A stretch of 38,481 nucleotides of DNA, from the NCBI GenBank assembly GCA_021777795.1, contig JAJYDD010000002.1:1-38481 (forward strand). Direction: 5' to 3'. The position numbers and the translations under genes were made by a program. Of the stretch, positions 17,643 to 37,685 are shown piece after piece. The notes beneath the pieces are model-generated. The model saw nothing but the letters and a program-made list of their open reading frames with translations. It was not told the DNA's origin and ran no database searches. The DNA is from Pseudomonadota bacterium. GTDB taxonomy: Bacteria > Pseudomonadota > Alphaproteobacteria > Rhizobiales > Beijerinckiaceae. Within the stretch, counting starts at the first letter, position 1. Every line of letters begins with the position of its first letter.

Positions 17643-18317
17643 TTACGCCCAATCCGCCGGCCCGATGCGGCCGTCGTGCAGCGCGCTCGCCACCAGGACG
17701 CCCGCCGCGCCGGCGCTTTTCAGCGCCGTCAGATCGGCGCCGTCGCGCACGCCGCCTGCCGCATAAAGCCGGCGCCCGTCGGCGCGCGCGCGGATCGCGG
17801 CGAGGCGCTCGAAATCCGGCCCCGCCCCGCCGCCGACGCGATGCAGCGTCATCACGATGACGCGCTCCGGCCACAGGCCCGGCCGAGACAACAGTTCCGG
17901 CGGACCCTGAAACGCCTCGCCGCGAAAATCCAACGACAGCAGCGCATCCCGGCGCGAGGCGACGAGCGCCGCATCGGCTTGCGATTCGCTGCCGAGCACG
18001 GGTACGCCGTAAAGTTGCGTCGCCTCGACCGTCGCCAGCGTCGCCGCGCCATTGTCAATCCAAAGCTCGACATCCGGAAACGCCTCGCGCAGCCGGGCGA
18101 GGGCGGCGAAATTGTCGCCGCGCCCCCGGATCGCGTCGAGATCGGCGATATAGAGCGTCGGGAACGGCCCGAGCCGCATGAGTCCTCGCGTGACGTCGAT
18201 GGGATCGGCCGTCGCGGACAACGGCGTCTCGATCGGCCGGTAGGCGTCGCGATCGCCCATTTTGGCGCGCACCACGCGCCCCTCGATGAGGTCGAGGACG
18301 GGAATCACTTGCATCAT
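17643..18317 (-). CDS. HisA/HisF-related TIM-barrel protein of an H4MPT/methylofuran-type gene cluster
   Basis: 224 aa; VIPVLDLIEGRVVRAKMG, ALLSLDFRGEAF, YAAGGVRDGADLTALKSAGAAGVLVASALHDGRI; ATGA overlap with the upstream gene. Confidence 0.85.
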   Translation of the reverse strand: MMQVIPVLDLIEGRVVRAKMGDRDAYRPIETPLSATADPIDVTRGLMRLGPFPTLYIADLDAIRGRGDNFAALARLREAFPDVELWIDNGAATLATVEATQLYGVPVLGSESQADAALVASRRDALLSLDFRGEAFQGPPELLSRPGLWPERVIVMTLHRVGGGAGPDFERLAAIRARADGRRLYAAGGVRDGADLTALKSAGAAGVLVASALHDGRIGPADWA

Positions 18318-18868
18318 GGGCCTCCGTGCGCTGCCACTTTCGCCTCCAGCCAGGCGAAGGCCTCCGCCTCGCCGGCGCTGGCGGTCTTGGCGACGATGAC
18401 CTTCAACCGCGCGAATTCGGCTGCGATCTCCGCGCGCGGCAAGAGATCGAGCCGGCTGGTCAGCACGGCGGCCTCGATGACGGCGGCGAGGGCGCGGCTG
18501 AAACCGCCGAAGGGCGCGTGCGTTTCCGCGCGCGCCACCCGGCAGACAAAGCGGGGTCGCTGCGCATCCTCGCGGATTTCGACGACCTCAAGCTCCCAAT
18601 GCGCCAGCGTTTCGGCGAGCCTGAACCCGGCCCCGACGGCGACCAGCGGCCAATCGCGCCGTCCCGTGAGGCAGCCGGCGAAGACCCGGGCGTCGTCGGT
18701 GAGATTGGCGACCGCAAAGGGCCGGGCGCGAAGGTTCTCCAGCGTCGCGGAGGGTCGGAACGGCGCGAGGATCCAACGCTCGCCTTCCGCGATCAAGCCG
18801 AGCGGCGCGATATGGGCGCGGCCCGCCGCGTCGGCGGTGACGACGATGGTCTCGCGGATCAGCGGCAT
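18314..18868 (-). CDS. DUF447-like protein (putative flavin-binding split barrel)
   Basis: 184 aa MPLIRETIVVTADAAGRAHIAPLGLIAEGERWILAPFRPSATLENLRARPFAVANLTDD...; context in C1 cofactor operon. Confidence 0.75.
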   Translation of the reverse strand: MPLIRETIVVTADAAGRAHIAPLGLIAEGERWILAPFRPSATLENLRARPFAVANLTDDARVFAGCLTGRRDWPLVAVGAGFRLAETLAHWELEVVEIREDAQRPRFVCRVARAETHAPFGGFSRALAAVIEAAVLTSRLDLLPRAEIAAEFARLKVIVAKTASAGEAEAFAWLEAKVAAHGGP

Positions 18869-18869
18869 G

Positions 18870-20249
18870 TCAGCTCCTCGCCTTGGCGCGCAAGGTGTGG
18901 CCGGCGTCGGCGAGCCGCGTGCGGTCCTCGGCCGGCCGGTCGGCCGCGACCCCCCAGTCCAGCGGCTCGTCCTGCGCGTAGCGCTTGCCAAGGCGAAAGG
19001 CGATCTCCGCCTTCTGCAATTCGGCGCCAAGATAGAAGGCGTGCGCGCCGTCGTTTTCCACGGCGAGCTTGTCGAACAGCGCCAAGGCGTCCGTGGCGAC
19101 CCAATGGCCCAGGGCGTTGAAGACATGCACGCCGTCGGCGGCGACCTCGATGCGGAAATTGCGGTCCTTCACTTGCGCCGCCGTGGCGGCGATCTCGGCC
19201 GGGGTGTTGGGAAACGGCGTGCGGTCGTGAACCTGCAACAGCGCGCGGCCATAGCCCTTGGGCAGACTGTGATCGCGGCGCGCCGCGAACATTATGCGGC
19301 GCGCCGCGTCATGTTCCTCCACCGTTCGGCGGGTATGTGGGCTCACCTGCACCGTCAGCGCATTGGCGATGCGCAGTTCCGAGCAGACCCCCAGCAGCAG
19401 GGCCGTCACGCCGGCGCTGTCGGCCTCCGTCAACTCCGTCAGGTTGCCCGTGCCCATTATCATCTCGGCATCCGGCAGGCGGGCGCGCAATTCACGGTAG
19501 CGGGCGAGCGAATCGGAAAAGCCGAAATGGATGGGGTCGAGGATCGGATCGAGGATCGGCCGCAATGCACGCGCCCGCTCGTAGGCGCGCACGAGCGAAT
19601 CGAGATCGCCGTGGCTCGCGGGGATCAACACCGGGCGCGCGCCGCCGGCGAGGTCGAGCGTATGCTCCGTCAGGCTCAGCAGATAATCCGCCCCCGCCGC
19701 CGCGCCGCGCCGCAGTTCCTCGGGATGGGCGGAATCGACGCTCACCGCGCATCCCTCCGCCTTCAACCGTCGCACCGCCGCTTCAAGATGGGCGAACGGC
19801 GTATCGGGCAGGCAGCCGAGATCGACGACGTCGGCGCCAGCGCGCCGCAGCGCGCCCGCGCGCGCGCTCAGCGCGTCGAGCGACAGCGCGGAAGCATCGA
19901 CGATCTCAGCGAAGATGCGCAGGTCATGGCCGGCGAGATCGGGCGGGCCGCCGCCTTTGCCGAAATAGGCCGGCAGGTCCTTCACTTCGTCCGGGCCGCG
20001 CTCGAAGGTCGCGCCAAAGGCTTGCGCCAGGCGGTCGAGATCGGCCCGGCAGCGGCCCGGCAACACGACGCGGCTCGCTGGCAGCGGGCGGGGCAGGCGA
20101 TTCATCAAGATCGGTTCGGTCATCAACGCGGCGACCTTCACGCCGATGTCCAGGATTTCATAGGCGAAGGGCGGCGCCATCGCGGCGAGCACGGCTTCGA
20201 GCCTCGGCCTTGCGAGCCGCCCGGTGACGAACAGCAGGCGCTCGCTCAT
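18870..20249 (-). CDS. Dihydropteroate synthase-related protein (H4MPT-associated, DUF6513-type)
   Basis: 459 aa; GADVVDLGCLPDTPFAHLEAAVRRLKAEGCAVSVDSAHPEELRRGAAAGADYLLSL DHPS-like barrel; MIMGTGNLTELTEADSAGVTALLLG. Confidence 0.85.
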   Translation of the reverse strand: MSERLLFVTGRLARPRLEAVLAAMAPPFAYEILDIGVKVAALMTEPILMNRLPRPLPASRVVLPGRCRADLDRLAQAFGATFERGPDEVKDLPAYFGKGGGPPDLAGHDLRIFAEIVDASALSLDALSARAGALRRAGADVVDLGCLPDTPFAHLEAAVRRLKAEGCAVSVDSAHPEELRRGAAAGADYLLSLTEHTLDLAGGARPVLIPASHGDLDSLVRAYERARALRPILDPILDPIHFGFSDSLARYRELRARLPDAEMIMGTGNLTELTEADSAGVTALLLGVCSELRIANALTVQVSPHTRRTVEEHDAARRIMFAARRDHSLPKGYGRALLQVHDRTPFPNTPAEIAATAAQVKDRNFRIEVAADGVHVFNALGHWVATDALALFDKLAVENDGAHAFYLGAELQKAEIAFRLGKRYAQDEPLDWGVAADRPAEDRTRLADAGHTLRAKARS

Positions 20250-20791
20250 AAGGCGAGGTCGGCCCGCCGTCGCGCCAGCGCCTCGGCAAGCTCGCTTGGA
20301 GAATCGACGGCGGTTACGCCCTCGAAACGGCCGAGCTTGTCGCGGTTCTCAAGGTCGATCGGGCGCGGATAGACCTTCACCATGCCTTTCGGCGCTTCGG
20401 TCAGCAACTCGGGCGCGGTGTCGCAGGCGAAGACGATGATCGGCACGCGCGTCTTGCCGCCGTGGGCGAACACGTTGGAAACCAGATCGTCGGAGACGCC
20501 ATAGACGAATTTGGCGACCGCGTTGGAGGTCGCGGGGGCGACGACGACGGTGTGATAGACGCCATAATAGAACTGGCCGATGGGCGCGGCGCTGGCGGTC
20601 TTGTCCTGGAAAACGCGGCAGGTCTTGGGCAGGTTCAACTCCTGCTTGTACATGCGCAGCACCTCCGCCGCCGCTTTGCTGAGAAAGAGGTCGAGGTCGG
20701 GGAGATCCCTCACCAGGGAGAATGTCTCTTTTATATAATGCCCGGAGCCGGTGATCGCCCAGGCCCAGCGCGGAATCTTAGGGTTGCTCAT
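20246..20791 (-). CDS. Archaeal-type flavoprotein (AfpA/DmrB-like, candidate dihydromethanopterin reductase)
   Basis: 181 aa; AWAITGSGHYIKETFSLVRDL, VVVAPATSNAVAKFVYGVSDDLVSNV (flavoprotein fold motifs). Confidence 0.82.
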   Translation of the reverse strand: MSNPKIPRWAWAITGSGHYIKETFSLVRDLPDLDLFLSKAAAEVLRMYKQELNLPKTCRVFQDKTASAAPIGQFYYGVYHTVVVAPATSNAVAKFVYGVSDDLVSNVFAHGGKTRVPIIVFACDTAPELLTEAPKGMVKVYPRPIDLENRDKLGRFEGVTAVDSPSELAEALARRRADLAL

Positions 20792-21390
20792 GCGTCAAGC
20801 CGTATCTCGGGGAAGGCTGCGCCGTCGAGCCCTTCGGCAAGCCGATCGGCCGACTCGGGCGCCGCCAGAAAGGCGCGGACCTTGGTCCCGCCGAGATAGG
20901 CTGGAAACAGGGGATCGACAACGCCGTCCCGCGCAAGCTCGCGGGCGGAGGCCGGCACGCCGTGCTTGACGAGGATCAGCCGCTCGGCGCCAAGCTGGCC
21001 CGCAAGCCAGACGGCGAGGCTATCGGAAGTCAAATCCCAGCTCGGCTTCAGCCCCGCCGCCAGCGCCATGCGTTCCGGCGACCAGATCGGCGTTCTGCCG
21101 CGCCGCAGAGCGTCCCGCAACGCCGCCTCCGAATCGGCAAGCGCGAACCCCGGCCGCAGGCTCGCCAGCGCGCGGCCGAACTGGCTCATCGCCATCATCG
21201 CCATTTCGTGCGCGGCGACATCGTCAAATCCGATCTGGGCTTGCTGCGCGCGCACCGCGTCGGCGAAGGGGCCGCCGCCGGGCACGATCACGAGGCGCCC
21301 GGCGTGGCGGGATATCGCATCAAGCCATTCGCCGAGCCTACCGCCTCGCGCTTGCGCGCCGCCGAGCTTGAGGACGACGAGGGGGTTCAT
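20788..21390 (-). CDS. Amino acid kinase-family protein (MfnE-like)
   Basis: 200 aa; VVLKLGGAQARGG..., LVIVPGGGPFADAVR, SDSLAVWLAGQLGAERLILVKHG. Confidence 0.82.
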   Translation of the reverse strand: MNPLVVLKLGGAQARGGRLGEWLDAISRHAGRLVIVPGGGPFADAVRAQQAQIGFDDVAAHEMAMMAMSQFGRALASLRPGFALADSEAALRDALRRGRTPIWSPERMALAAGLKPSWDLTSDSLAVWLAGQLGAERLILVKHGVPASARELARDGVVDPLFPAYLGGTKVRAFLAAPESADRLAEGLDGAAFPEIRLDA

Positions 21391-21425: not shown

Positions 21426-21447
21426 GGGGCTAATGGCCATTAGCCCC
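21426..21447. repeat. Perfect 22-bp palindrome GGGGCTAATGGCCATTAGCCCC
   Basis: Read directly; contains the stop codon of the 21430..21945 gene and lies about 36 bp upstream of the 20788..21390 start codon (21390, minus strand). Confidence 0.95.
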
Positions 21448-21945
21448 TTGCCAGTGGCTATGTCCCGAATATCCCCCCGCGCCAAATCCGCGCGAATGAA
21501 GGCCCGAAAGACCGAAACCCTGGATCGTTGACAAGAAATTGTCGAAAAACCCAGGCTGCTCCGCCTCGAAAGCGTCAAGCGAGGCGGCGGAGCGGAATTT
21601 CCACGGCGTCGCCGGATCGGCGCGACTGCCGAGCGTCAGCTTGCGGGTGTCCCAGTCGATGCAGGCCGTCGCGTTCTCGTTCTTGGTGATGAGGCAGACC
21701 GAGCGTCCCTTTGCGGTCGCGAGCAGCCGCGTGAAGCTGACATAGGAGCCGTCGGGCCGCTGGAAAACGTAAGACGAGCTTTTGTCGAGCTTCGTTTCGA
21801 CGCCGCCATGCGCCTTCGCCTGCTCGATCAGCTTGTCCCAGGATTTGTCGCTATCGGTCGCGCTCGCCAAAGCCGGGCCGCAGGCCAGCAAGCCGATCGT
21901 CAAGCTCAAACAAGCCCAACTCAAGCCCTGCCCCGTCATCGCCAT
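21430..21945 (-). CDS. Secreted hypothetical protein with Gly/His-rich C-terminus (possibly IalB-like)
   Basis: 171 aa, hydrophobic N-terminus LSLTIGLLACGPALASA; SYVFQRPDGSYVSFTRLLATAKGRSVCLITKNENATACIDWD; tail GAGGYSGHSHWQGANGH. Confidence 0.6.
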   Translation of the reverse strand: MAMTGQGLSWACLSLTIGLLACGPALASATDSDKSWDKLIEQAKAHGGVETKLDKSSSYVFQRPDGSYVSFTRLLATAKGRSVCLITKNENATACIDWDTRKLTLGSRADPATPWKFRSAASLDAFEAEQPGFFDNFLSTIQGFGLSGLHSRGFGAGGYSGHSHWQGANGH

Positions 21946-22069: not shown

Positions 22070-23488
22070 CTAACCGCTGGCGTCCGGACGCCTCTTGACC
22101 CTCAGCGGCAGGCCGTTGGCCGAGCGCAGGGTCAGCCGCGACACCGGCTCCGGCTGATGGCCGGGAACGGGCGAGAATTCGAAGCGGCGCAGCAACTGCG
22201 CCAAGGCCAGCGTCGCCTCCTGCATCGCGAACGCGGTCCCCGAGCAGACGCGCGGCCCCATGCTGAACGGCAGAAAGGCGCAGGCGCGCGCCGATTTCGT
22301 CGCGGGATCGGCGAAACGGTCGGGATCGAACTGATGCGCGTCGGTCCAGTAGACGCCGTGGCGATGCATGAGCCAAGTCGGCACGATGGTCTGGGCGTGC
22401 GCTTCGACCACCTGCCCGCAGAGTTGCGTCGGCGCTGCGGCGTCGCGCGCGAGGAAGGCGACGGGTGGATAGAGCCGCAGCGTCTCCTGAAACACGTCGC
22501 GGATGAACGGCACGCGGCGCATGTCGGAAAATTCCGGCGCGCGCGACCCCAGCGCCGCGTCCGCTTCGGCGCGCATGCGCTCCTGCACGTCCGGCCGGTT
22601 GGCGATCAGGTAAAGCGCCCAGCCCAGCGCGGCGGCGGAGGTTTCGTGTCCCGCCAGGAAAAGCATCGCCACCTGATCGAGCAATTCCTTCTCGTCGAAG
22701 CGCGTCCCGGTGACGGGATCGGGGGCCGAGATGAGGGTGGCCAGAATGTCGTTGTCCGGCGCCGGCTCGCCGGCCGCGATCTTGGCGAGCCGGCGCGCGA
22801 TCGGGCGCTGCAACGCGCGCCGGATAATCGCTGCGTCGCGCCGCCCACGCCAATAAGAGGGCAGCAGAAAGGTCGGCGCGCCGAGCAGCGACAAAAACCC
22901 ATGCGCGTAGGCGATGCGCTGGAACCGTTCGAACGACGCAAAAATCTCGTGCGCGTCGCGCTCGCTCATCGGCTCGGAATAGAGCGTGCGAAAGATCACG
23001 TCGCCGGCGAAATGCATGGTCTCGACATCGACGTCCATGACCGCGCCGCCCATCTCCGGCGTCCGTTCGACGAGCCGCGCCTCCATCGCATCGCAAGCGT
23101 CGCGCATCAGCCCGAACACCTCGCGCACCCGCGCATTCTCGAACGCCTGGTCGATGATCGCGCGCTGGCGCCGCCAGGCCTCGCCGTTCGAGACGAAGAT
23201 GCTGTAGCCGGTCAGCGCCCGCAGCATCGAATCCATCAGATGCGCCTTGGGGAAGCGCGTCGCGTCGCTGACCAGAACCTGACGGATCGCGTCGGGATCG
23301 CGCGCGAGATAGACAGTGCGCTTCGGCCGAAAAGGGAGACGCGGCAGCGGATGGCGGCTGACCCCGATGAAATCGTAGGAGCCGCGCAGGAACAGCGAAA
23401 GCCCGGAATTGAGAAACTGGCGCGCCCGCGCAAGCGGCGAGGCTTTCTGCTCGGATGCGACCGGGCGCGGGGGGACGAAAGCGTTCAT
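22070..23488 (-). CDS. Cytochrome P450
   Basis: 472 aa; I-helix AGHETS, K-helix ETLR, heme-binding FSMGPRVCSG. Confidence 0.96.
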   Translation of the reverse strand: MNAFVPPRPVASEQKASPLARARQFLNSGLSLFLRGSYDFIGVSRHPLPRLPFRPKRTVYLARDPDAIRQVLVSDATRFPKAHLMDSMLRALTGYSIFVSNGEAWRRQRAIIDQAFENARVREVFGLMRDACDAMEARLVERTPEMGGAVMDVDVETMHFAGDVIFRTLYSEPMSERDAHEIFASFERFQRIAYAHGFLSLLGAPTFLLPSYWRGRRDAAIIRRALQRPIARRLAKIAAGEPAPDNDILATLISAPDPVTGTRFDEKELLDQVAMLFLAGHETSAAALGWALYLIANRPDVQERMRAEADAALGSRAPEFSDMRRVPFIRDVFQETLRLYPPVAFLARDAAAPTQLCGQVVEAHAQTIVPTWLMHRHGVYWTDAHQFDPDRFADPATKSARACAFLPFSMGPRVCSGTAFAMQEATLALAQLLRRFEFSPVPGHQPEPVSRLTLRSANGLPLRVKRRPDASG

Positions 23489-28446: not shown

Positions 28447-28490
28447 TCAGTTCGCGCCGAACGGATGCTCAGTTAGCGCCGAAGGGATGC
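28447..28490. repeat. 22-bp tandem duplication spanning the fae stop codon
   Basis: 28447-28468 TCAGTTCGCGCCGAACGGATGC and 28469-28490 TCAGTTAGCGCCGAAGGGATGC, 20/22 identical. Confidence 0.95.
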
Positions 28491-28978
28491 TTGGCCGAGT
28501 CGCGCTTGGAGACGACCTCTTGCGGCGTCGGATGGCCGGCGACAGCGCGCTCGAGCGCTTCCTTGGTCGCCTTGTAGTTGTACTCCTGGATCTTCTTGTC
28601 GTCGCTGGCTTCCCAATGGATGAACACGCCGACGCAGATGAACAGGTCGTCCGCCTCCCAAGCTGGAATCGTGCCGTCGGCGACGGAATCGGCGACCGCC
28701 TTGGCGACGCCGTATTGCGCCGGGCCGAACATCTGCACCGCCTGCTTGGCGCCCTTGATCGTCACTTTGTTGAACATGACGGTCGCGGGTTTGGTCATGA
28801 GATTCGGGGCCACGACCGCGAGCAGCGCGGTGAAGCCGTCCTTGTTGTTGACGAGCGCGTTAGCGAACGCGGTTTCCGCCGCGCTTCCGCGCGGTCCGAT
28901 CAGCAAGTCGATATGGGCGACTTCGTTACCATCGCCAACCAAGGACTCGCCGACGCACATCTTGGTGATCTTAGGCAT
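28469..28978 (-). CDS. fae: Formaldehyde-activating enzyme
   Basis: 169 aa [42 protein letters not shown]...KHPFGAN; SD GGGAGGAAG before ATG at 28978. Confidence 0.96.
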
Positions 28979-29120
28979 GCACTTCCTCCCAGCAAACATA
29001 CGGGCCTTCCGGCTCGGGGCGCTCTAAGCCACGAACCGGCTATCCTTGTTGTCAGCACCCCACGCACCCCGTGGAATCGGTTGGCCGGATAGGCGCCGCC
29101 ACCGCGGCCGCGCGCGCCAG

Positions 29121-29978
29121 TCAATCATTGTTGGGCGGGCGGGGCAAGCCGTTCGTCGCATTTGGATGCAAGTGCGCCACAAAAAGCGTCGCCACGGTGA
29201 TGTCTGCGCAGGCGCCGGGGTTGAGGCCGCGCCCTTTCAAATCCGCGTCCCAGGCGGCAAGGTCGGCCGCCCGCGACGCCGGCGACGCGCCCGCCAGCGC
29301 TGTGGCGCGCCGCGCCGCGTCGCGACGGACCGCCTCCGCCGTCTCGGCCCCGAATTTGCGCGCAATATGAGAATCGGGAAAGGCGCCGAGGAACGTCAGA
29401 TAGACTGCCTGCGCGGCTTGCGCGGGCGAGCCGCCCGCAGCGCGCGAGGCGGCGTAGGCGGCGCCGCCGAGGCCGAACACCTCGGCGAAGCCATTGGCGT
29501 ATTGCCGCGCCACGAGATCGCGGTCCGCCGCCGCGATCATCGCCTCGCGCAGGCCAATGGAGGCCGGCGCGCGCACATCGTGCGTCTCGGCCGACCCCAA
29601 GCCGCCGGGATTGGCGAGAACGATGGCGGCGAACACCTCGCGGGCGTCGTCGAGATCGAGGCCGTCGAGCGTGGCGATGAGGCCGTCGCGCAGCGGCTCG
29701 CCCCGTTCGGCGGCGGCGGCGAGCGGGGCGCACAGAAGCACGATGCCGAGATTGGTGTTCTGCCCGACGGCCGCCCGGGTGGCCGCGACCGCCTCGCGCA
29801 CGCGAACGCCGACCCGCGCCCCGCGACGGGCGATCGCCGGGGCGCTGACGCGGGCGCTGGTTTCGAAATCCCCCGCCGTCATGCCGTGGCCTTCGGCGTG
29901 GCGATGGACATTGCCGGGTTTGAGCGCGTCGAGTTCGTCCAGGCAGGCGGCGATATAAGCGTCGGCGATGGCGCTCAA
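29121..29978 (-). CDS. Triphosphoribosyl-dephospho-CoA synthase-like protein (CitG family; methylotroph orf7)
   Basis: 285 aa; ACLDELDALKPGNVHRHAEGHGMTAGDFE, GQNTNLGIVLLCAPLAAA; position next to orf5 and fae. Confidence 0.85.
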   Translation of the reverse strand: MSAIADAYIAACLDELDALKPGNVHRHAEGHGMTAGDFETSARVSAPAIARRGARVGVRVREAVAATRAAVGQNTNLGIVLLCAPLAAAAERGEPLRDGLIATLDGLDLDDAREVFAAIVLANPGGLGSAETHDVRAPASIGLREAMIAAADRDLVARQYANGFAEVFGLGGAAYAASRAAGGSPAQAAQAVYLTFLGAFPDSHIARKFGAETAEAVRRDAARRATALAGASPASRAADLAAWDADLKGRGLNPGACADITVATLFVAHLHPNATNGLPRPPNND

Positions 29979-29983
29979 CTCGA

Positions 29984-30859
29984 CTATCTCCGCAGCACGT
30001 CGTCGGCGATCGCGCCGGCTATGTCGACAGACGTCACCTTCTGCAATCCGCTCCAGGCCGGCATGCTGTTGACTTCCAGCACACGGGGGCCGTTACGGCC
30101 GATTATGACGTCGACGCCGGCGATTTTGGCGCCGACGGCGCGGGCTGCGGCGAGGGCCAGCGCCTCTAGCGCAGCGTCGCGCGGCACGGCGACTGGGTTG
30201 CCGCCCTGCTTGACATTGGTGATCCAGGTCGAGGCGCGCCGCATCATCGTCGCAATCACCCGCCCCCCCGAGATGAAAAGCCGGAAATCGCGGAAATCCT
30301 CGCCCTCGATCGGCACGAAGCGCTGCAAATAATAGACGCCCGCCGTCGCCTCGGGAGGCGGGAGATCGTCGGCGGCGCGGATGAGGCGCAGGCCCTTGCC
30401 CTGCGCGCCGAACAATGGCTTCAGCACCAATGGCCCGCGTTCGATCTCGCGCCGCGCGAGCGCGCGCGCCTGCTCGAACGATTCCACGGTCCAGGTTTGC
30501 GGCGTCGGCAGGCCCGCCCGCGCGACCAGAAAGCTCGTCATCGATTTATCGACGCAGGCCTCGATCGCTCGCGGCGCGTTGACGACGCGCACGCCCATGC
30601 GGTCGAGCGCGTGCAGAACGCCGAGCCGCTTGGTGATCGCCTCGAACGTGCCGCCCGCCATCGTGCGCACGTGGACGGCGTCGGGCAGGGCGGAAAAGCC
30701 TGGAAGATCGAGCCCGGTCGGGTTTGTCGTGTCGAAACCGCAAGCGGCGAGGTCGAGCCGCGTCGTCTCCACGCCCCGGACAGCGTAAGCATCCTCCATC
30801 CGTCGCGCGTGCCAGTCGCGTGTGTCGCTGACGAGCAGGATGCGCCTAGCCGCGCCCAT
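29984..30859 (-). CDS. RimK-type ATP-grasp ligase (methylotroph orf5; MptN-like)
   Basis: 291 aa; GPLVLKPLFGAQGKGLRLI, DFRDFRLFISGGRVIATMMR, VDVIIGRNGPRVLEVNSMPAWSGLQ. Confidence 0.88.
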   Translation of the reverse strand: MGAARRILLVSDTRDWHARRMEDAYAVRGVETTRLDLAACGFDTTNPTGLDLPGFSALPDAVHVRTMAGGTFEAITKRLGVLHALDRMGVRVVNAPRAIEACVDKSMTSFLVARAGLPTPQTWTVESFEQARALARREIERGPLVLKPLFGAQGKGLRLIRAADDLPPPEATAGVYYLQRFVPIEGEDFRDFRLFISGGRVIATMMRRASTWITNVKQGGNPVAVPRDAALEALALAAARAVGAKIAGVDVIIGRNGPRVLEVNSMPAWSGLQKVTSVDIAGAIADDVLRR

Positions 30860-31851
30860 CAGCCGAAGGAGGCGTCGAGCAGCGCCTCGTTGACCCCGCC
30901 GGCGCGGAACGTCGCCCCCGCTTCGATCGCCGTCACCATCGTTTCGGCGGGGCTGAACAGCATCGGGTCGATAGCGTAGAAATCGCCCTTGAAGCGCTTG
31001 AAGATGTCGCGGAAGGGCGCCCCGTAATCGCGCGAGGCGCTGCTCGGCAGGGCGTCGGCGAGCGCCTTGGCGTCATCCGCCGGCCCGGTGACGAACAGGT
31101 GAACCCGGCCGCCATAGATGATGGCGTCATTGGTGCGGCCCATCGCGGTCATGAAATCGGGATGCGGCGGCGACAGCGGCGCCGCGCCCAGGCCGTCGAC
31201 GATACGCTCCAATGGGAACTTCAACGCATGCGCCTTATGCAGCGCCACTTCCAGCACCCGCGCGACCACTTGCACGCCGCCGGCCAGGCTCTGCGTCGGC
31301 GCATAGATGACCGTCAGCGCCGAGGGCGGCAATCCGCAGGCTTCGGCGACCTTGGCGATGATCTCCGGCGGCGGCGCGCGACCGCTCTCGATCACCAGCG
31401 TCGTCCGGGTCGCCTGATCGCGATAGCCGAGTTCCGCGAACAGCGCCTCCTTCTGCGCCAGCGCGCGCGCCGGACCCGAGCCCAGGGCGAAAAAGGCGTC
31501 GCGTCCCTCGCCATGCGCGAGGCTCCAGCCCGCATATTGGCTGCCGAGACAGGCGATGACCGGCTGCGACGAGCGCACGCTGAGCGTCCAGGGCCAACGG
31601 CGAATCGTGGCGTCGCTTGTCAGCGCCACCTCGCCGAGACCGCCGAGACAGATCCTGGCGACGCCCAAGCCCGCCTCGATTCCGCCCCGCCGCTTGACGC
31701 CCGCGTCGATCAGAGTTTCCCCGAGCGGCCCGGTCTCAATCTCGATTTCCAGCCGCGCGGCTTGCGCCCGCAGCCAGTCGACGCCTTTCGAGGCGCCCTC
31801 GTTGACGCTGATGGACGATGCGCCGCTCATGATAGACGATGCGCCGCTCAT
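30859..31851 (-). CDS. mch: Methenyl-tetrahydromethanopterin cyclohydrolase
   Basis: 330 aa; GARICLGGLGEV-type segment (GVARICLGGLGEVAL), SSQPVIACLGSQYAGWSLAHGEG, ALGSGPARALAQKE; start ATG 31851 coupled (ATGA) to the upstream stop with SD GGGAGGG. Confidence 0.94.
   Translation of the reverse strand: MSGASSIMSGASSISVNEGASKGVDWLRAQAARLEIEIETGPLGETLIDAGVKRRGGIEAGLGVARICLGGLGEVALTSDATIRRWPWTLSVRSSQPVIACLGSQYAGWSLAHGEGRDAFFALGSGPARALAQKEALFAELGYRDQATRTTLVIESGRAPPPEIIAKVAEACGLPPSALTVIYAPTQSLAGGVQVVARVLEVALHKAHALKFPLERIVDGLGAAPLSPPHPDFMTAMGRTNDAIIYGGRVHLFVTGPADDAKALADALPSSASRDYGAPFRDIFKRFKGDFYAIDPMLFSPAETMVTAIEAGATFRAGGVNEALLDASFG
31810..31851. repeat. 21-bp in-frame tandem duplication at the mch 5' end (MSGASSI-MSGASSI)
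   Basis: 31810-31830 GATGGACGATGCGCCGCTCAT and 31831-31851 GATAGACGATGCGCCGCTCAT, 20/21 identical. Confidence 0.95.
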
Positions 31852-32951
31852 GGGCGTCCCTCCCGCAACCAGGTCTGGATGCGCCCGGATCGCTCTTTGG
31901 CCTGCGACTTCGCTGCCGCAGGGCTCGCTCCAGCGGCGAGCACGGTGCAGAACGGCGCCCCGGCGCGAACGGGGGTTCCCGGCTGCGGACGGTCGGCGGC
32001 CCAGTGCGGCCAATCGCCTTGCGGCGCCGTGGCGTCGATTTCAGCATAGACGATCTCGGCCGCCCGCGGCGAGCGCGGCTTCGGCGGCCCTGACCGCCGG
32101 CCGGCGACAGCGTCGATATGGCGCGCCAGCAGGGGGTCTTCGTCGTCGTCAAAAACGTCCAGCGTCGCGCCGGGGCGCGGGTTGATCTCCAGAAGCCACA
32201 ACCGCTCCCCGTCTTCAAGGAAATCGGCGCTGGCGAGCCCGCGCAGGCCGAGCGCTCCGGTAAGATGGGCAAGCGCGGCCAGCAATCCCGCCGGCGCGGC
32301 GATCTCGATCGGCCCTGCGGCGCCGCCGTAGCGGAACGGGGCTGCGGCGCAAGGCGCGGCCCATTGCTCGCTCCAGGCGATGGGGGTCAGGGCGACGGCG
32401 TCGCGCACGAAAAGCAGCGAGACCGCGCGGCCCTCGACCCGGCGCTGCCAATAATCGGCAGGTCCGGGCGTCCGCGTCATCGCCGGCGCGACATGCCCTC
32501 CGCCGGAGCCGCCACGCAGCTTGAGCAGCCATTGCGAGGGCGTCTCAGGCGCGGAAAGCCGAATCGCGGGATGAGCGATCCCGGCGGCCTCGCAGCATCG
32601 CGCGAAAAACACGGGGTCTTTAGCGCGCGCCAACGCTTCGGGCGAGGCGCCCAACAGGGGGAGCGCGCGCGCGATTTCGGCCAAAGCCATCGGGCAGTCG
32701 TCGAAGCCGGAGCCAAAGACCAAGCCCGTTGGCGCATGGGCGTCAGTGAGCCGCGCGACGGTTGGCGCAAGCTCGACCTCAGCGAATCCCCCCATCGCGT
32801 TCTCCATCACCTCCATCGCCTTGCAAACCGACCGCGCATCTTGGTCGCCGAAGGCGTCGATCGCTACGACTTCGTAGCCCGCGCGCCGCGCCGCCTCAGC
32901 CAGGGCGCGCGCCGATACGGCGACAAGCAACAACACCTGCCTACCGGTCAT
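31848..32951 (-). CDS. ATP-grasp domain protein of C1 cluster (methylotroph orf17-type / MfnD-like ligase)
   Basis: 367 aa; QWLLKLRGGSGGGHV, GLASADFLEDGERLWLLEINPRPGATLDVFD. Confidence 0.8.
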   Translation of the reverse strand: MTGRQVLLLVAVSARALAEAARRAGYEVVAIDAFGDQDARSVCKAMEVMENAMGGFAEVELAPTVARLTDAHAPTGLVFGSGFDDCPMALAEIARALPLLGASPEALARAKDPVFFARCCEAAGIAHPAIRLSAPETPSQWLLKLRGGSGGGHVAPAMTRTPGPADYWQRRVEGRAVSLLFVRDAVALTPIAWSEQWAAPCAAAPFRYGGAAGPIEIAAPAGLLAALAHLTGALGLRGLASADFLEDGERLWLLEINPRPGATLDVFDDDEDPLLARHIDAVAGRRSGPPKPRSPRAAEIVYAEIDATAPQGDWPHWAADRPQPGTPVRAGAPFCTVLAAGASPAAAKSQAKERSGRIQTWLREGRP

Positions 32952-33120
32952 GCCATGAAGCCCGGCTCAAGGCGCTGGCGCATCGCCAGACGAATTCCCG
33001 TGGCGATTTCGCCCAATTTCCCCGTAAGCGTCGTCCGACCCCTTGCCCAGGCGCACATAGAAGACTTGGCGAGGCGATCTGTCCAGTCGCTTGTGACGCA
33101 AAAACGAGCATCGCGACGAC

Positions 33121-33141
33121 GCCTTAACCTGCGTCAAGGCG
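33121..33141. promoter_or_regulatory. Imperfect inverted-repeat motif GCCTTAACCTGCGTCAAGGCG (possible operator)
   Basis: Near copy of 24761-24778; located between divergent C1 operons. Confidence 0.35.
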
Positions 33142-33311
33142 CCGCAATCCCAGAAAACCCGAATAACGCGCTGCGTCAGGGGACGAATCCGCCGGCGGCC
33201 AGCGCCAAAATCAGGACAATTTCCCACGCGCATGAATGGACAAGGCAGCCTGCCCGTATCAGATATTGCGGCGGCGGGGCCGCTGCGGGCTCGGAACGGA
33301 CCCGGGGCCAT

Positions 33312-34352
33312 ATGACGGAGGAGACGATAGGCGCGGCGATAGACGATAGGCCGGCCGTCGCCTGGATCGACGGGGCGCCCGTGGTTTTCGAGGAGGCCGT
33401 CGCGCAGGCCGAGCGCCTGATTCGCGCCAGCTCGCTGCCCGTGTTCGCCCATCTCGGCGCCGACGTGGAGGGTGCGCGCGAGGCCGTGTTGCTGGCGGAA
33501 TTCGTCGGCGGCGTGCTCGACCATGCGGCTTCAACCGCTCTCCTTAGAGATCTGGACCCGATTCGCGAGACCGGCGGCATGCTGACGACGCCGCTGGAGG
33601 CGGCAGTGCGCGCCGATGTCGTCCTGCTGGTCGGCGCGGTCGCCGCGCCCGACTGGGTCTCCCGACCCGCGCGCCCTTACGATGCTGACATTCCACGCCG
33701 CACGCTACGCCTTGGCGAGGGTGCGGCCCTTCTGTCGCGCCTTGCGGCGCTGCGCGCGCGCGTCAAGCGAAGGCCCGTCGCATCCGCGCCAGCCGGCCTT
33801 GAGGAACAGGCGGAGACGCTGCGCGACGCCAGATTCGGAGTCGCGATCTGGGACGCGGCGGAATTGGAGGCCCTGGCCGTCGAGGCGATCCACGGCCTCG
33901 TGCGCGACCTCAATGAGACGACGCGGTTCTCGACGGCGTCCGCGCCCGCCCGCGACAATGGCGTTGGCGTGCAGACGGTGTGTGGCTGGATGACCGGCTT
34001 TCCGCTGCGCACGGGATTTGGCCGAGGCCAACCGGAACACGACCCCTGGCGCCATGATTCGCGCCGCCTGATCGCCTCGGGCGAGGCCGATTGCGTGATC
34101 TGGGTGTCCACGTTCGAGGGCGGCGCGGCGCCTTCGCAGGCCGTCGACATTGCTCTTTGCGCGGCGGGCGCGCAAATCGACGCGCGCGTGCGCTTCGCGG
34201 TGGCGCGGCCCGGTCTCGACTGCGATACGATCCTGCACGACAACGCGGCCGGCGCGCTCGTCGCGCGCAAGGCTGCGGCCGCGTCGTCAGCGCCGACCGC
34301 CGCCGCGACATTGGCGGCCATCCGCGCCCGGCTGGAGACGCCGCCATGCTGA
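33312..34352 (+). CDS. fhcB: Formyltransferase/hydrolase complex subunit B
   Basis: 346 aa; AHLGADVEGAREAVLLAEFVGGVLDHA, VCGWMTGFPLRTGFGRGQPEHDPWRHD; first gene of fhcBADC. Confidence 0.93.
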   Translation: MTEETIGAAIDDRPAVAWIDGAPVVFEEAVAQAERLIRASSLPVFAHLGADVEGAREAVLLAEFVGGVLDHAASTALLRDLDPIRETGGMLTTPLEAAVRADVVLLVGAVAAPDWVSRPARPYDADIPRRTLRLGEGAALLSRLAALRARVKRRPVASAPAGLEEQAETLRDARFGVAIWDAAELEALAVEAIHGLVRDLNETTRFSTASAPARDNGVGVQTVCGWMTGFPLRTGFGRGQPEHDPWRHDSRRLIASGEADCVIWVSTFEGGAAPSQAVDIALCAAGAQIDARVRFAVARPGLDCDTILHDNAAGALVARKAAAASSAPTAAATLAAIRARLETPPC

Positions 34353-35977
34353 TCCGCATCGTCGGCGGGCGTGTGCTCGACCCCGCCAACCACCGCGACG
34401 AGATCGGCGACCTCTGGCTCGAAGGCGAGCGCGTCGTCGCCGCGCCCGCCCACGGCCGCGCCGACGAGACGTTTGACGCCTCGGGCTGCGTGGTGATGGC
34501 CGGCGCCATCGACATCCATTCGCATATCGCCGGCGCCAATGTGAATACCGCGCGTCTGCTGCTGCCCGAGCAGCACCGCGCCCATGCCGCGAGGCCCGCC
34601 GGGACGCCGCTCTCCAACGCCGGCTGGTCGACTTTCGAGACCGGCAAGCTTTATGCCCAGATGGGCTTCACCACCGTCGTCGAGCCGGCCGTGTCGCCCC
34701 ACAACGCGCTGCACGCGCATCTGGAGCTTGCCGATACGCCCGTCATCGACAAGGCGATTTTGGCCATTCTCGGCAACGACGATTTCGGCTTGTCCTTGAT
34801 GCGCGACGGCGCCGGGCCGGCGGCGATCCGCGATCACGTCGCCTGGACGCTGCAATCGTCCAAGGCGCTGGGGATAAAAGTCATCAACGCCGGCGGCGTC
34901 GCGGCCTTCAAAGACAACGTGCGCGCCTTCTCGTTCGACGATGTGGTGCCGCATTACGGGATGTCCAGCCGGCAGATCGTCAAGACGCTGCAACGTGCGG
35001 TCGCCGATCTCGGCGTGCCGCATCCCCTGCATATCCATTGCAACAACCTCGGGCTGCCCGGCAATTTCGAGACCGCGCTGGCGACGATCGCGGCGGCCGA
35101 GGATCTGCCGTTGCATCTGGCGCATCTGCAATTCTACGGCTACGGCCGCGAGGGCAAGCTTGGCTTTTCCTCCGCCGCGCCGAAACTCGCCGAGGCGGTC
35201 AACGCCGCCAAGAACGTCACCATCGACGTCGGCCAGGCGATGTTCGGCCAGACCGTGACCATCTCCTCCGATGTGTTGCGGCAATTCTCCGCTCGCGGCC
35301 AAGCGCATCCCAACAAATATGTCATCATCGACGGCGACGCCAACGGCGGCGGCATGCTGCCTTATAAATACAAGAGCGGCGCTTTCGCCAACGCCGTGCA
35401 ATTCGCCGTCGGGCTTGAACTGTTCCTGCTGATCGAAGATCCCGGCCAGGTGTTCTTCACCACCGATCATCCCAATGGCGCGCCGTTCACCACTTATCCC
35501 GAGATATTCGCGCTGCTGATGAGCCGCGATCTGCGCGATCAATGGCTGGAGAAGCTGCCCGCCGAAGCGCTCGCCGTGACGACGCTGCGCGGCCTGCGGC
35601 GCGAATATACCTGGGCCGAGATCGCGGTGATGACCCGCGCGGCGCCGGCGCGGCTGTTGGGTTTGAGAGATCGCGGGCATCTGGGCGTCGGCGCGCGCGC
35701 CGACGTCGCCATCTACCGGCCCGGCCCCGATCTCGCGGCGACTTTCCGCCATGCCGAGCGCGTCTACAAGGACGGCGATTGCGTGGTGCGCGAGGGCGTC
35801 CTCACGCATTACCGCTTCGGCCGCGCCCTGCGCGTCGCGCCCGAACCCGACGCCGCGATGACCCGGCGCCTCGACGCCTATTACGACAGCCGCTACGGCC
35901 TCGACGCCGGGCTGCTCAGCGTGCCGGAGACGGCGCTCCCCCGCGAACCCTTCGAGACCGTCGCATGTCAGAGCTGA
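34346..35977 (+). CDS. fhcA: Formyltransferase/hydrolase complex subunit A (amidohydrolase fold)
   Basis: 543 aa; IDIHSHIAGANVNTARLLLPEQHRAH, GFTTVVEPAVSPHNALHAHLELADTP, HIHCNNLGLPGNF, FTTDHPNGAPFTTYPE. Confidence 0.95.
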   Translation: MLIRIVGGRVLDPANHRDEIGDLWLEGERVVAAPAHGRADETFDASGCVVMAGAIDIHSHIAGANVNTARLLLPEQHRAHAARPAGTPLSNAGWSTFETGKLYAQMGFTTVVEPAVSPHNALHAHLELADTPVIDKAILAILGNDDFGLSLMRDGAGPAAIRDHVAWTLQSSKALGIKVINAGGVAAFKDNVRAFSFDDVVPHYGMSSRQIVKTLQRAVADLGVPHPLHIHCNNLGLPGNFETALATIAAAEDLPLHLAHLQFYGYGREGKLGFSSAAPKLAEAVNAAKNVTIDVGQAMFGQTVTISSDVLRQFSARGQAHPNKYVIIDGDANGGGMLPYKYKSGAFANAVQFAVGLELFLLIEDPGQVFFTTDHPNGAPFTTYPEIFALLMSRDLRDQWLEKLPAEALAVTTLRGLRREYTWAEIAVMTRAAPARLLGLRDRGHLGVGARADVAIYRPGPDLAATFRHAERVYKDGDCVVREGVLTHYRFGRALRVAPEPDAAMTRRLDAYYDSRYGLDAGLLSVPETALPREPFETVACQS

Positions 35978-36876
35978 CGGCCAACGGCGTCGCGATCGAC
36001 GATACTTTCGCGGAAGCCTTCGACATGCGCGGCACCGCGCTCGTCATCACCGCCGACAGCCGCAAATGGGCGCTCCAGGCGGCCGTCACGATGACCGGCT
36101 TCGCCACCTCCGTCATCGCCTGCGGCTGCGAGGCCGGCATGGATCGCGAGCTTGGCCCGCACGAGACGCCCGACGGGCGGCCGGGCGTGCGGGTGTTGAT
36201 GTTCGCCACCTCGACGGCGGAATTGCAGAAGCAGTTGCAAAACCGCGTCGGGCAATGCGTGCTGACGAGCCCCGGCTCGGCCTGCTACGCGGGTCTGGCG
36301 GCGGGCGAGGACAAGCTCAAGCTCGGCGCGGCGATCCGCTATTTCGCCGATGGCTGGCAGATCGCCAAGAAGGTCGGCGAGCGCCGATATTGGCGCCTGC
36401 CGGTGATGGACGGCGAGTTCGTCTGCGAATCGACCACGCCGATGACCAAACGCGCCGTCGGCGGCGGCAATCTGCTCATCATGGGCGCGACGCCGCAGAC
36501 GACGCTGGCGGCGACCGAGGCGGCGGTGGAGGCGATGCGCGCCGTGCCCGACGCGATCATGCCTTTCCCCGGCGGCATCGTGCGCTCCGGCTCCAAGGTC
36601 GGCTCCAAATACAAGGGCGCCATCGCCTCGACCAACCATCTCTATTGCCCGACGCTCAAAGGCGCGGTCGACAGCGAGATCGGGCCGGAGATCGCCTGCG
36701 TCCTGGAGATCGTCATCGACGGGCTGACGAGCGAGGCGGTCGCTGCGGCGATGCGCGCCGGACTGAAGGCGATCGCCGATCTCGGGCCCGAGCGCGGCGC
36801 CTTGCGCGTCGGCGCCGGAAATTACGGCGGCAAGCTCGGCAAGCACCATTATCGGCTGAAGGAGCTCATGCCGTGA
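35965..36876 (+). CDS. fhcD: Formylmethanofuran-tetrahydromethanopterin formyltransferase, complex subunit D
   Basis: 303 aa; DTFAEAFDMRGTALVITADS, TGFATSVIACGCEAG, PGGIVRSGSKVGSKYKGAIASTNHLYCPTL. Confidence 0.96.
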   Translation: MSELTANGVAIDDTFAEAFDMRGTALVITADSRKWALQAAVTMTGFATSVIACGCEAGMDRELGPHETPDGRPGVRVLMFATSTAELQKQLQNRVGQCVLTSPGSACYAGLAAGEDKLKLGAAIRYFADGWQIAKKVGERRYWRLPVMDGEFVCESTTPMTKRAVGGGNLLIMGATPQTTLAATEAAVEAMRAVPDAIMPFPGGIVRSGSKVGSKYKGAIASTNHLYCPTLKGAVDSEIGPEIACVLEIVIDGLTSEAVAAAMRAGLKAIADLGPERGALRVGAGNYGGKLGKHHYRLKELMP

Positions 36877-37685
36877 GCGGCTTCACCTTCCGGCTGCGCG
36901 CGCCGCCGCCGCAGCGCGTCGATCTCTCAGGCCTGACGCCGCAGGCGCTCGCCGGCCGCACCCTCGCCGAGATCGCGGCGCTGCCGATCCAGACAACACG
37001 CTCGGCGCTGAGCGTCGGCGACCTTTTCGACATAAGGGAAGGCGATCTCGACGAGATCGTATTCGAGGGCGGCGAGGAGCGGCTCGACTGGGTCGGCGCC
37101 GGCCTCGGCGCGGGCGCGATCCGCGTCGTCGGCGACGTCGGGGTTGAGGCCGGACGCGGCATGACGGGCGGCGCGCTGACCATTGAGGGGGGCGCCGGCG
37201 CCTTTGCCGGCTCCGGCCTGCGCGGCGGGCTGCTGAAGATCGGCGGCGACGCCGGCGAACGGCTCGGCGGCCCGCTCGCCGGCGAGACCGAGGGCATGAG
37301 CGGCGGCGCGATCCATGTCGGCGGGAACGCCGGCCCCCGCGCCGGCGACAAGATGCGGCGCGGCTTCCTGCTCATCGAGGGCGACGCCGGCGATTACGCT
37401 GGCAGCCGCATGATCGCCGGCACGCTGGCGATTGGCGGCCGGGCGGGCGCGCTGCCGGGCTATCTGATGAACCGGGGCACGATCCTGCTCGCGGGCGGCG
37501 TCGTCGAGATGGCGCCGACTTTCCTCGATTGCGGGGTGTTCGAATTGGTGGCCGCGCGGCTTCTCGCCGACCATGTCGAGACGATGAGCCCCCGCCTCGG
37601 CGCAGCCTTTCGCGGCCCGTTGCGGAGGTACGCCGGCGACCTCGCCGCGCTCGGCAAGGGCGAGATCTTCGTCGGAGCGCGGTAA
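36873..37685 (+). CDS. fhcC: Formyltransferase/hydrolase complex subunit C (FwdC-like beta-helix)
   Basis: 270 aa, GTG start overlapping the fhcD stop; repeated GxxGxxxGxxMxxG pattern (GDVGVEAGRGMTGG, GNAGPRAGDKMRRG, GDAGDYAGSRMIAG). Confidence 0.94.
   Translation: MSGFTFRLRAPPPQRVDLSGLTPQALAGRTLAEIAALPIQTTRSALSVGDLFDIREGDLDEIVFEGGEERLDWVGAGLGAGAIRVVGDVGVEAGRGMTGGALTIEGGAGAFAGSGLRGGLLKIGGDAGERLGGPLAGETEGMSGGAIHVGGNAGPRAGDKMRRGFLLIEGDAGDYAGSRMIAGTLAIGGRAGALPGYLMNRGTILLAGGVVEMAPTFLDCGVFELVAARLLADHVETMSPRLGAAFRGPLRRYAGDLAALGKGEIFVGAR

Follow-up and report, generated by a model that had tools for sequence, protein, structure and literature searches.

Five adjacent genes, orf21, afpA, orf20, orf19 and orf17, lie on the minus strand of a 38,481-nucleotide stretch of contig JAJYDD010000002.1 from a Beijerinckiaceae genome (the whole stretch is referred to here as the window). 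Together they very probably form one transcription and translation unit encoding enzymes for both cofactors of tetrahydromethanopterin (H4MPT)-dependent formaldehyde oxidation, H4MPT and methylofuran. This is the main formaldehyde-oxidising route in many methylotrophs, and several steps in the biosynthesis of the two cofactors have no assigned enzyme; for methanopterin, the number of unknown proteins was estimated at seven in 2011 (PMC3087415). The operon is the known ‘archaeal-like’ H4MPT/methylofuran island of methylotrophs in a slightly rearranged form, and is ordinary for its group. Our contribution is to place orf19 and orf20 on the pterin branch by co-occurrence, and to name a likely flavin chemistry for the DUF447 protein encoded by orf19. 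The gene set is known, and sharper tests are now possible of what exactly three of its enzymes catalyse.

The original prediction had described a run of five open reading frames (ORFs) at 17643-21390, joined by ATGA or TGACATG junctions. Reading of the sequence together with the ORF list confirmed every ORF and junction in place (Table 1). The ATGA at 20788-20791 joins orf21 to afpA, that at 20246-20249 joins afpA to orf20, and that at 18314-18317 joins orf19 to orf17. Between orf20 and orf19, a single C (18869) separates the TGA stop (18872-18870) from the ATG start (18868-18866). As orf17 begins with ATGATG, its junction with orf19 can be read either as a 4-nucleotide ATGA overlap or as TGATG. 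The orf19 frame is open further upstream (18314-19126), and alignment with homologues backs the internal ATG at 18868. All five proteins gave Pfam matches above cut-off and the gene order is conserved in relatives, indicating that the ORFs are real genes. Tight coupling is partly conserved: among relatives, the next gene has an available start that overlaps the preceding stop at 25 of 43 orf21/afpA, 9 of 49 afpA/orf20 and 25 of 102 orf20/orf19 junctions, with the window included in these counts.

The island has been published from Methylosinus trichosporium OB3b as orf19-orf20-afpA-orf21-orf22 (PMC3615186), and Orf22, Orf21 and Orf9 are homologues of MfnB, MfnE and MfnF (PMC8141765). The window shares with OB3b and the M. 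extorquens cluster the same genes in the same order, a contiguous one-strand 21-afpA-20-19 block, with fae, mch, orf5, orf7, orfY and fhc close by. The names orf19 (DUF447) and orf20 (dihydropteroate synthase (DHPS)-like) were taken from this gene order and not from comparison with the AM1 sequences. Among 80 named alphaproteobacterial loci (L060-L139, including Methylosinus, Methylocystis and Methylobacterium), most had the order 22-21-(afpA)-20-19, a block also seen in loci L037-L059. In the named loci, orf17 was often found further on, with fae-7-5-mch-Y convergent to it. Family matches, the published island (PMC3615186, PMC8141765) and co-occurrence with fae, mptG and mfnB in 80 genomes all support the function suggested originally, a candidate methylofuran/H4MPT assembly module; the word ‘candidate’ understated its status, since the module had already been published.

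Unlike this island, the operon in the window does not begin with orf22 (mfnB), and its last gene is a coupled orf17. Also, about 7 kb separates the operon from the fae-orf7-orf5-mch-orfY block, which shares its strand here but is convergent to orf17 in relatives that have the block nearby. Among 29 co-oriented orf19-orf17 pairs (same strand, within 3 kb), only that of the window overlaps; the gap is at least 1064 nucleotides in the other 28 loci, and at the inspected loci the gene in between is mfnF (orf9; TIGR03123/MfnF) on the opposite strand. The genome carries fae, mch, fhc, mptG, mfnF and mfnB. The last of these was seen in its N-terminal part only (G000:C544:6-197), cut by the contig end; mfnF is on the same contig (G000:C544:7389-8375) and mptG, encoding the beta-ribofuranosylaminobenzene phosphate (beta-RFAP) synthase, is at G000:C115:4599-5414, in keeping with the earlier statement that these three genes are outside the window. 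The usual order is 22-21-afpA-20-19, mfnF on the other strand and then orf17; here mfnB and mfnF are on another contig, and orf17 abuts orf19 and is coupled to it. As mfnF and mfnB lie together on C544, the cluster has been split, with orf17 now inside the operon. The overlap of orf17 and orf19, with mfnF and mfnB relocated, is new and specific to this genome among the 29 pairs. The assembly consists of 624 contigs and is about 80% complete, and the window is continuous across the orf19/orf17 junction.

Some further observations concern the head of the operon and the loci compared. At the site occupied by mfnB in relatives, an ORF for a 171-residue protein (21430-21945, minus strand) ends 39 nucleotides upstream of orf21. 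The protein has a signal-peptide-like start and matched no family in profile searches, and its gene may be co-transcribed with the operon. About half of the loci L037-L059 have no afpA between orf21 and orf20, and at these loci it has probably been replaced by the non-homologous DmrA. In genome G042, from a member of the family, mfnB is split by an assembly gap, with overlapping parts of the gene at the ends of contigs C45 and C109 (L147, L046) that would, if joined, give the usual mfnB-orf21 order.

Co-occurrence with one-carbon (C1) genes had been proposed as a test that could refute the original prediction. DUF447 was present in 24 of the 121 genomes of the order, and we profiled 80 of these, comprising all 24 positives and 56 negatives. 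Both fae and mptG were found in exactly the 24 DUF447 genomes, and mfnB in these and in G045. In the within-family negatives G082, G027, G035, G045 and G050, DUF447, fae, mptG and mfnB were absent together, save for mfnB in G045. The MfnB homologue of this genome is full-length (131 bits) and is encoded a few kb from an orf7/CitG-like gene (L146, G045:C1:326463-327329 and 330107-330766), with no fae, mptG or DUF447 found in the genome; the two genes may be a remnant, or may belong to a furan pathway that functions outside C1 metabolism.

We then considered which gene serves which cofactor. In the control genomes, MptG and DUF447 both matched in Methanocaldococcus jannaschii, Haloferax, Sulfolobus and Methanosarcina acetivorans, and TIGR00284, the DHPS-like family, matched among the archaea in M. 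jannaschii, Sulfolobus and M. acetivorans, with three control genomes above its cut-off. MfnB, Fae and FhcD matched in M. jannaschii and M. acetivorans only, and MfnE in these two and Thermotoga, with one genome above cut-off. Sulfolobus therefore has DUF447 and the DHPS-like family with no match to MfnB, Fae or FhcD, so that orf19 and orf20 track the pterin branch and, judged by family distribution, most likely serve H4MPT. afpA would serve H4MPT too; orf21 would belong to the methylofuran side by homology, and orf17 by analogy with a knockout made elsewhere. ATGA or near-ATGA coupling across all five genes could instead mean that they make a single cofactor, either methylofuran or H4MPT, and the original prediction had taken it as a sign of one pathway. 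This is highly improbable, as deletion of orf17 abolishes methylofuran and leaves methenyl-dH4MPT still made (PMC8141765), AfpA/DmrB is of the dihydromethanopterin reductase type, and Sulfolobus has DUF447 and TIGR00284 without MfnB or Fae. The single-pathway reading of the coupling was rejected on the contrast between the orf17 knockout and the role of AfpA; the operon is a mixed one for two cofactors.

Several points weigh against a mixed two-cofactor operon as we describe it. A promoter scan found no sigma-70-like promoter, so we infer, rather than observe, that the five genes are on a single transcript. For four of the five proteins, the score against the best-matching model is lower than its curated cut-off: Orf21 scored 56.3 against 300 bits (NF040622 MfnE, an equivalog cut-off; E 3.4e-15), Orf20 165.9 against 256.65 (TIGR00284, 1.2e-48), Orf17 101.6 against 179.85 (TIGR00734 hisAF_rel, 5.5e-29) and AfpA 96 against 192 (TIGR02699, 1.9e-27). 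These proteins are therefore divergent bacterial relatives, and the scores do not establish that they catalyse the same reactions. The substrates and products named below are predictions. The placement of orf19 and orf20 on the pterin branch draws on a small number of archaeal genomes among the controls, one of which, Haloferax, belongs to the haloarchaea, described as folate users (PMC8305020). Finally, the nominal Fisher p for co-occurrence (6e-21) ignores shared ancestry, and the within-family absences are a better argument than this value.

For Orf21 and AfpA, the likely reactions can be read from relatives. Orf21 matched PF00696 (4.4e-12) and, in a profile search, PDB entry 7qrh (5.5e-27), with which its invariant motifs K8 G10 G11, G38-G40 and T121 S122 D123 align; these are the K/GG, GGG and TSD motifs of an MfnE-like amino-acid kinase. 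By this homology, Orf21 would convert aminomethyl-furanmethanol phosphate to the diphosphate for methylofuran. AfpA matched TIGR02700 (8.6e-27) and, over nearly its full length, the AfpA/DmrB structures 3wis and 4mwg, putative dihydromethanopterin reductases (3.5e-51). Those are from another organism; as supported in relatives, the protein in the window would reduce dihydro- to tetrahydromethanopterin.

Orf17 matched PF00977 (6.1e-21), the family of the Orf17 whose deletion was described above (PMC8141765), and a PF00977 protein accompanies the other island genes in all fae-bearing genomes; its assignment is by family and context. With the window protein as query, orthologues were found in 24 of 24 positive genomes (E 2e-47 or better), and among the five within-family negatives four gave no match and G082 a weak one (E 2e-4). 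The window protein was used because TIGR00734, dropped as a marker, also matches HisA/HisF and so rang in 13 of 14 control genomes. Residues D9 and D130 are invariant in nine relatives and align with conserved aspartates of PriA/HisA, which we take to be the catalytic pair of these enzymes. Orf17 thus shares with the HisA/PriA phosphoribosyl isomerases the fold family and both active-site positions, but scores below the curated isomerase cut-offs. It is probably not the histidine enzyme, since the genome has another HisA/F-like match on contig C160. By analogy with the mutant, Orf17 would act at an early methylofuran step, its chemistry having been left open (PMC8141765).

Orf20 comprises regions matching PF20123 (1.3e-24) and PF14251 (4.5e-7). 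Its nearest named sequences in the tree are from Pseudolabrys/Xanthobacteraceae and Methylocapsa metagenome-assembled genomes (66-68% identity). A sequence search against the PDB gave chance-level matches only and profiles gave weak Sul2/Sul3 matches, with the similarity to DHPS weak beyond the first strands, and we therefore turned to fold comparison. The AlphaFold model, of moderate confidence (pLDDT 76), matched many DHPS structures (Foldseek E about 1e-7, TM(target) about 0.6), and the conserved motifs VIDLG, VSVDS and LDPI.FG are found at DHPS-like positions. The barrel would most likely join hydroxymethyl-dihydropterin diphosphate to an arylamine. It is also conceivable, though we think it unlikely, that Orf20 acts as a scaffold or regulator that binds pterin, and that the host FolP forms the arylamine bond of H4MPT. 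The limited sequence match, the moderate model confidence and the additional N-terminal DUF6513 and C-terminal DUF4346 regions are consistent with such a role; the fold match, the retained motifs and the above-cut-off TIGR00284 matches in control genomes argue for a condensing enzyme instead.

Orf19 matched PF04289 (9.4e-25, 87.2 bits against a cut-off of 24) and PF20766 (1.3e-10, 41.5 against 24.8). Its predicted structure (pLDDT 95) has the same fold, over the whole length, as the DUF447 proteins MM1853 (2nr4), Archaeoglobus (2iml), MTH_863 (2ptf) and Rhodopirellula 3b5m, with 21-33% identity in the fold alignment, and all of these are functionally uncharacterised. The three archaeal entries have FMN or riboflavin phosphate bound, according to their PDB titles. 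The original prediction could name no function for the HisA/F-like and DUF447 members; this no longer holds for the former, given the knockout, and for the latter these FMN-bound structures provide a lead. On the way to H4MPT, the ribofuranosyl arm has to be reduced to a deoxyribitol, and the methanogen literature calls for an FMN-type reductase at this step, which we treat as a lead and not a result. Orf19 would most likely act as a reductase on the non-pterin half of H4MPT. Because DUF447 relatives bind FMN and DUF447 tracks MptG, it is a candidate for the reductive step in which the ribose is opened. We tentatively propose that Orf19/DUF447 is an FMN-dependent reductase that opens the ribofuranose of beta-RFAP, or of its pterin conjugate, to give the deoxyribitol arm in bacteria and archaea, and that Orf20 is the DHPS-type condensing enzyme. 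Both share one coupled operon here with orf21 and orf17 of the furan branch. Among the papers available, a literature search found no orf19 or orf20 mutant phenotype.

The modelled fold of Orf19 also resembles NADH:flavin oxidoreductases of two-component systems, and orf19 is coupled to afpA at many loci. Orf19 could then be a source of reduced FMN for AfpA, acting as a flavin reductase and not as a biosynthetic enzyme, which we regard as doubtful. DUF447 is present in all 24 positive genomes, yet about half of their loci have no adjoining afpA, as is also the case for Methylobacterium loci, which argues against Orf19 being only an electron donor to AfpA; Methylobacterium uses the non-flavin DmrA (PMC6193120). 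The tracking of MptG by DUF447 in archaea similarly favours a biosynthetic reductase.

Table 1. Genes of the operon and other C1 genes in the window.
Gene	Product or family	Coordinates	Strand	Length	Match
orf21	MfnE-type amino-acid-kinase-fold kinase, first operon gene	20788..21390	-	200 aa	
afpA/dmrB	archaeoflavoprotein-type dihydromethanopterin reductase	20246..20791	-	181 aa	
orf20	dihydropteroate-synthase-like: DUF6513, DHPS-like barrel, DUF4346-like tail	18870..20249	-	459 aa	
orf19	DUF447 split-barrel flavoprotein-like	18314..18868	-	184 aa	
orf17	HisA/HisF-like, last operon gene	17643..18317	-	224 aa	
fae	formaldehyde-activating enzyme	28469..28999	-		TIGR03126 8.2e-75, over cut-off
orf7	CitG-like	29121..29978	-		PF01874 8e-65
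orf5/myfB	RimK-type ATP-grasp glutamate ligase	29984..30859	-		PF08443, TIGR00768 over cut-off; best MptN-type 7.3e-57
mch	methenyl-H4MPT cyclohydrolase	30859..31830 (start approximate)	-		TIGR03120 4.1e-114, over cut-off
orfY/myfA	ATP-grasp	31848..32951	-		PF02655 2.1e-10; position and similarity kept in relatives
fhcB-fhcA-fhcD-fhcC	formyltransferase/hydrolase complex	33300..37685 (fhcB start approximate)	+		TIGR03129 partial; TIGR03121, TIGR03119, TIGR03122 over cut-off

By homology, the window also holds the remaining genes for formaldehyde oxidation (Table 1), which the original prediction did not mention. The fae-orf7-myfB-mch-myfA block (minus strand) and fhcBADC (plus strand) are divergently oriented and together span 28469-37685. 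The two halves of the C1 cluster have a cytochrome P450 gene between them (22070-23488, minus strand; PF00067, 3.9e-71).

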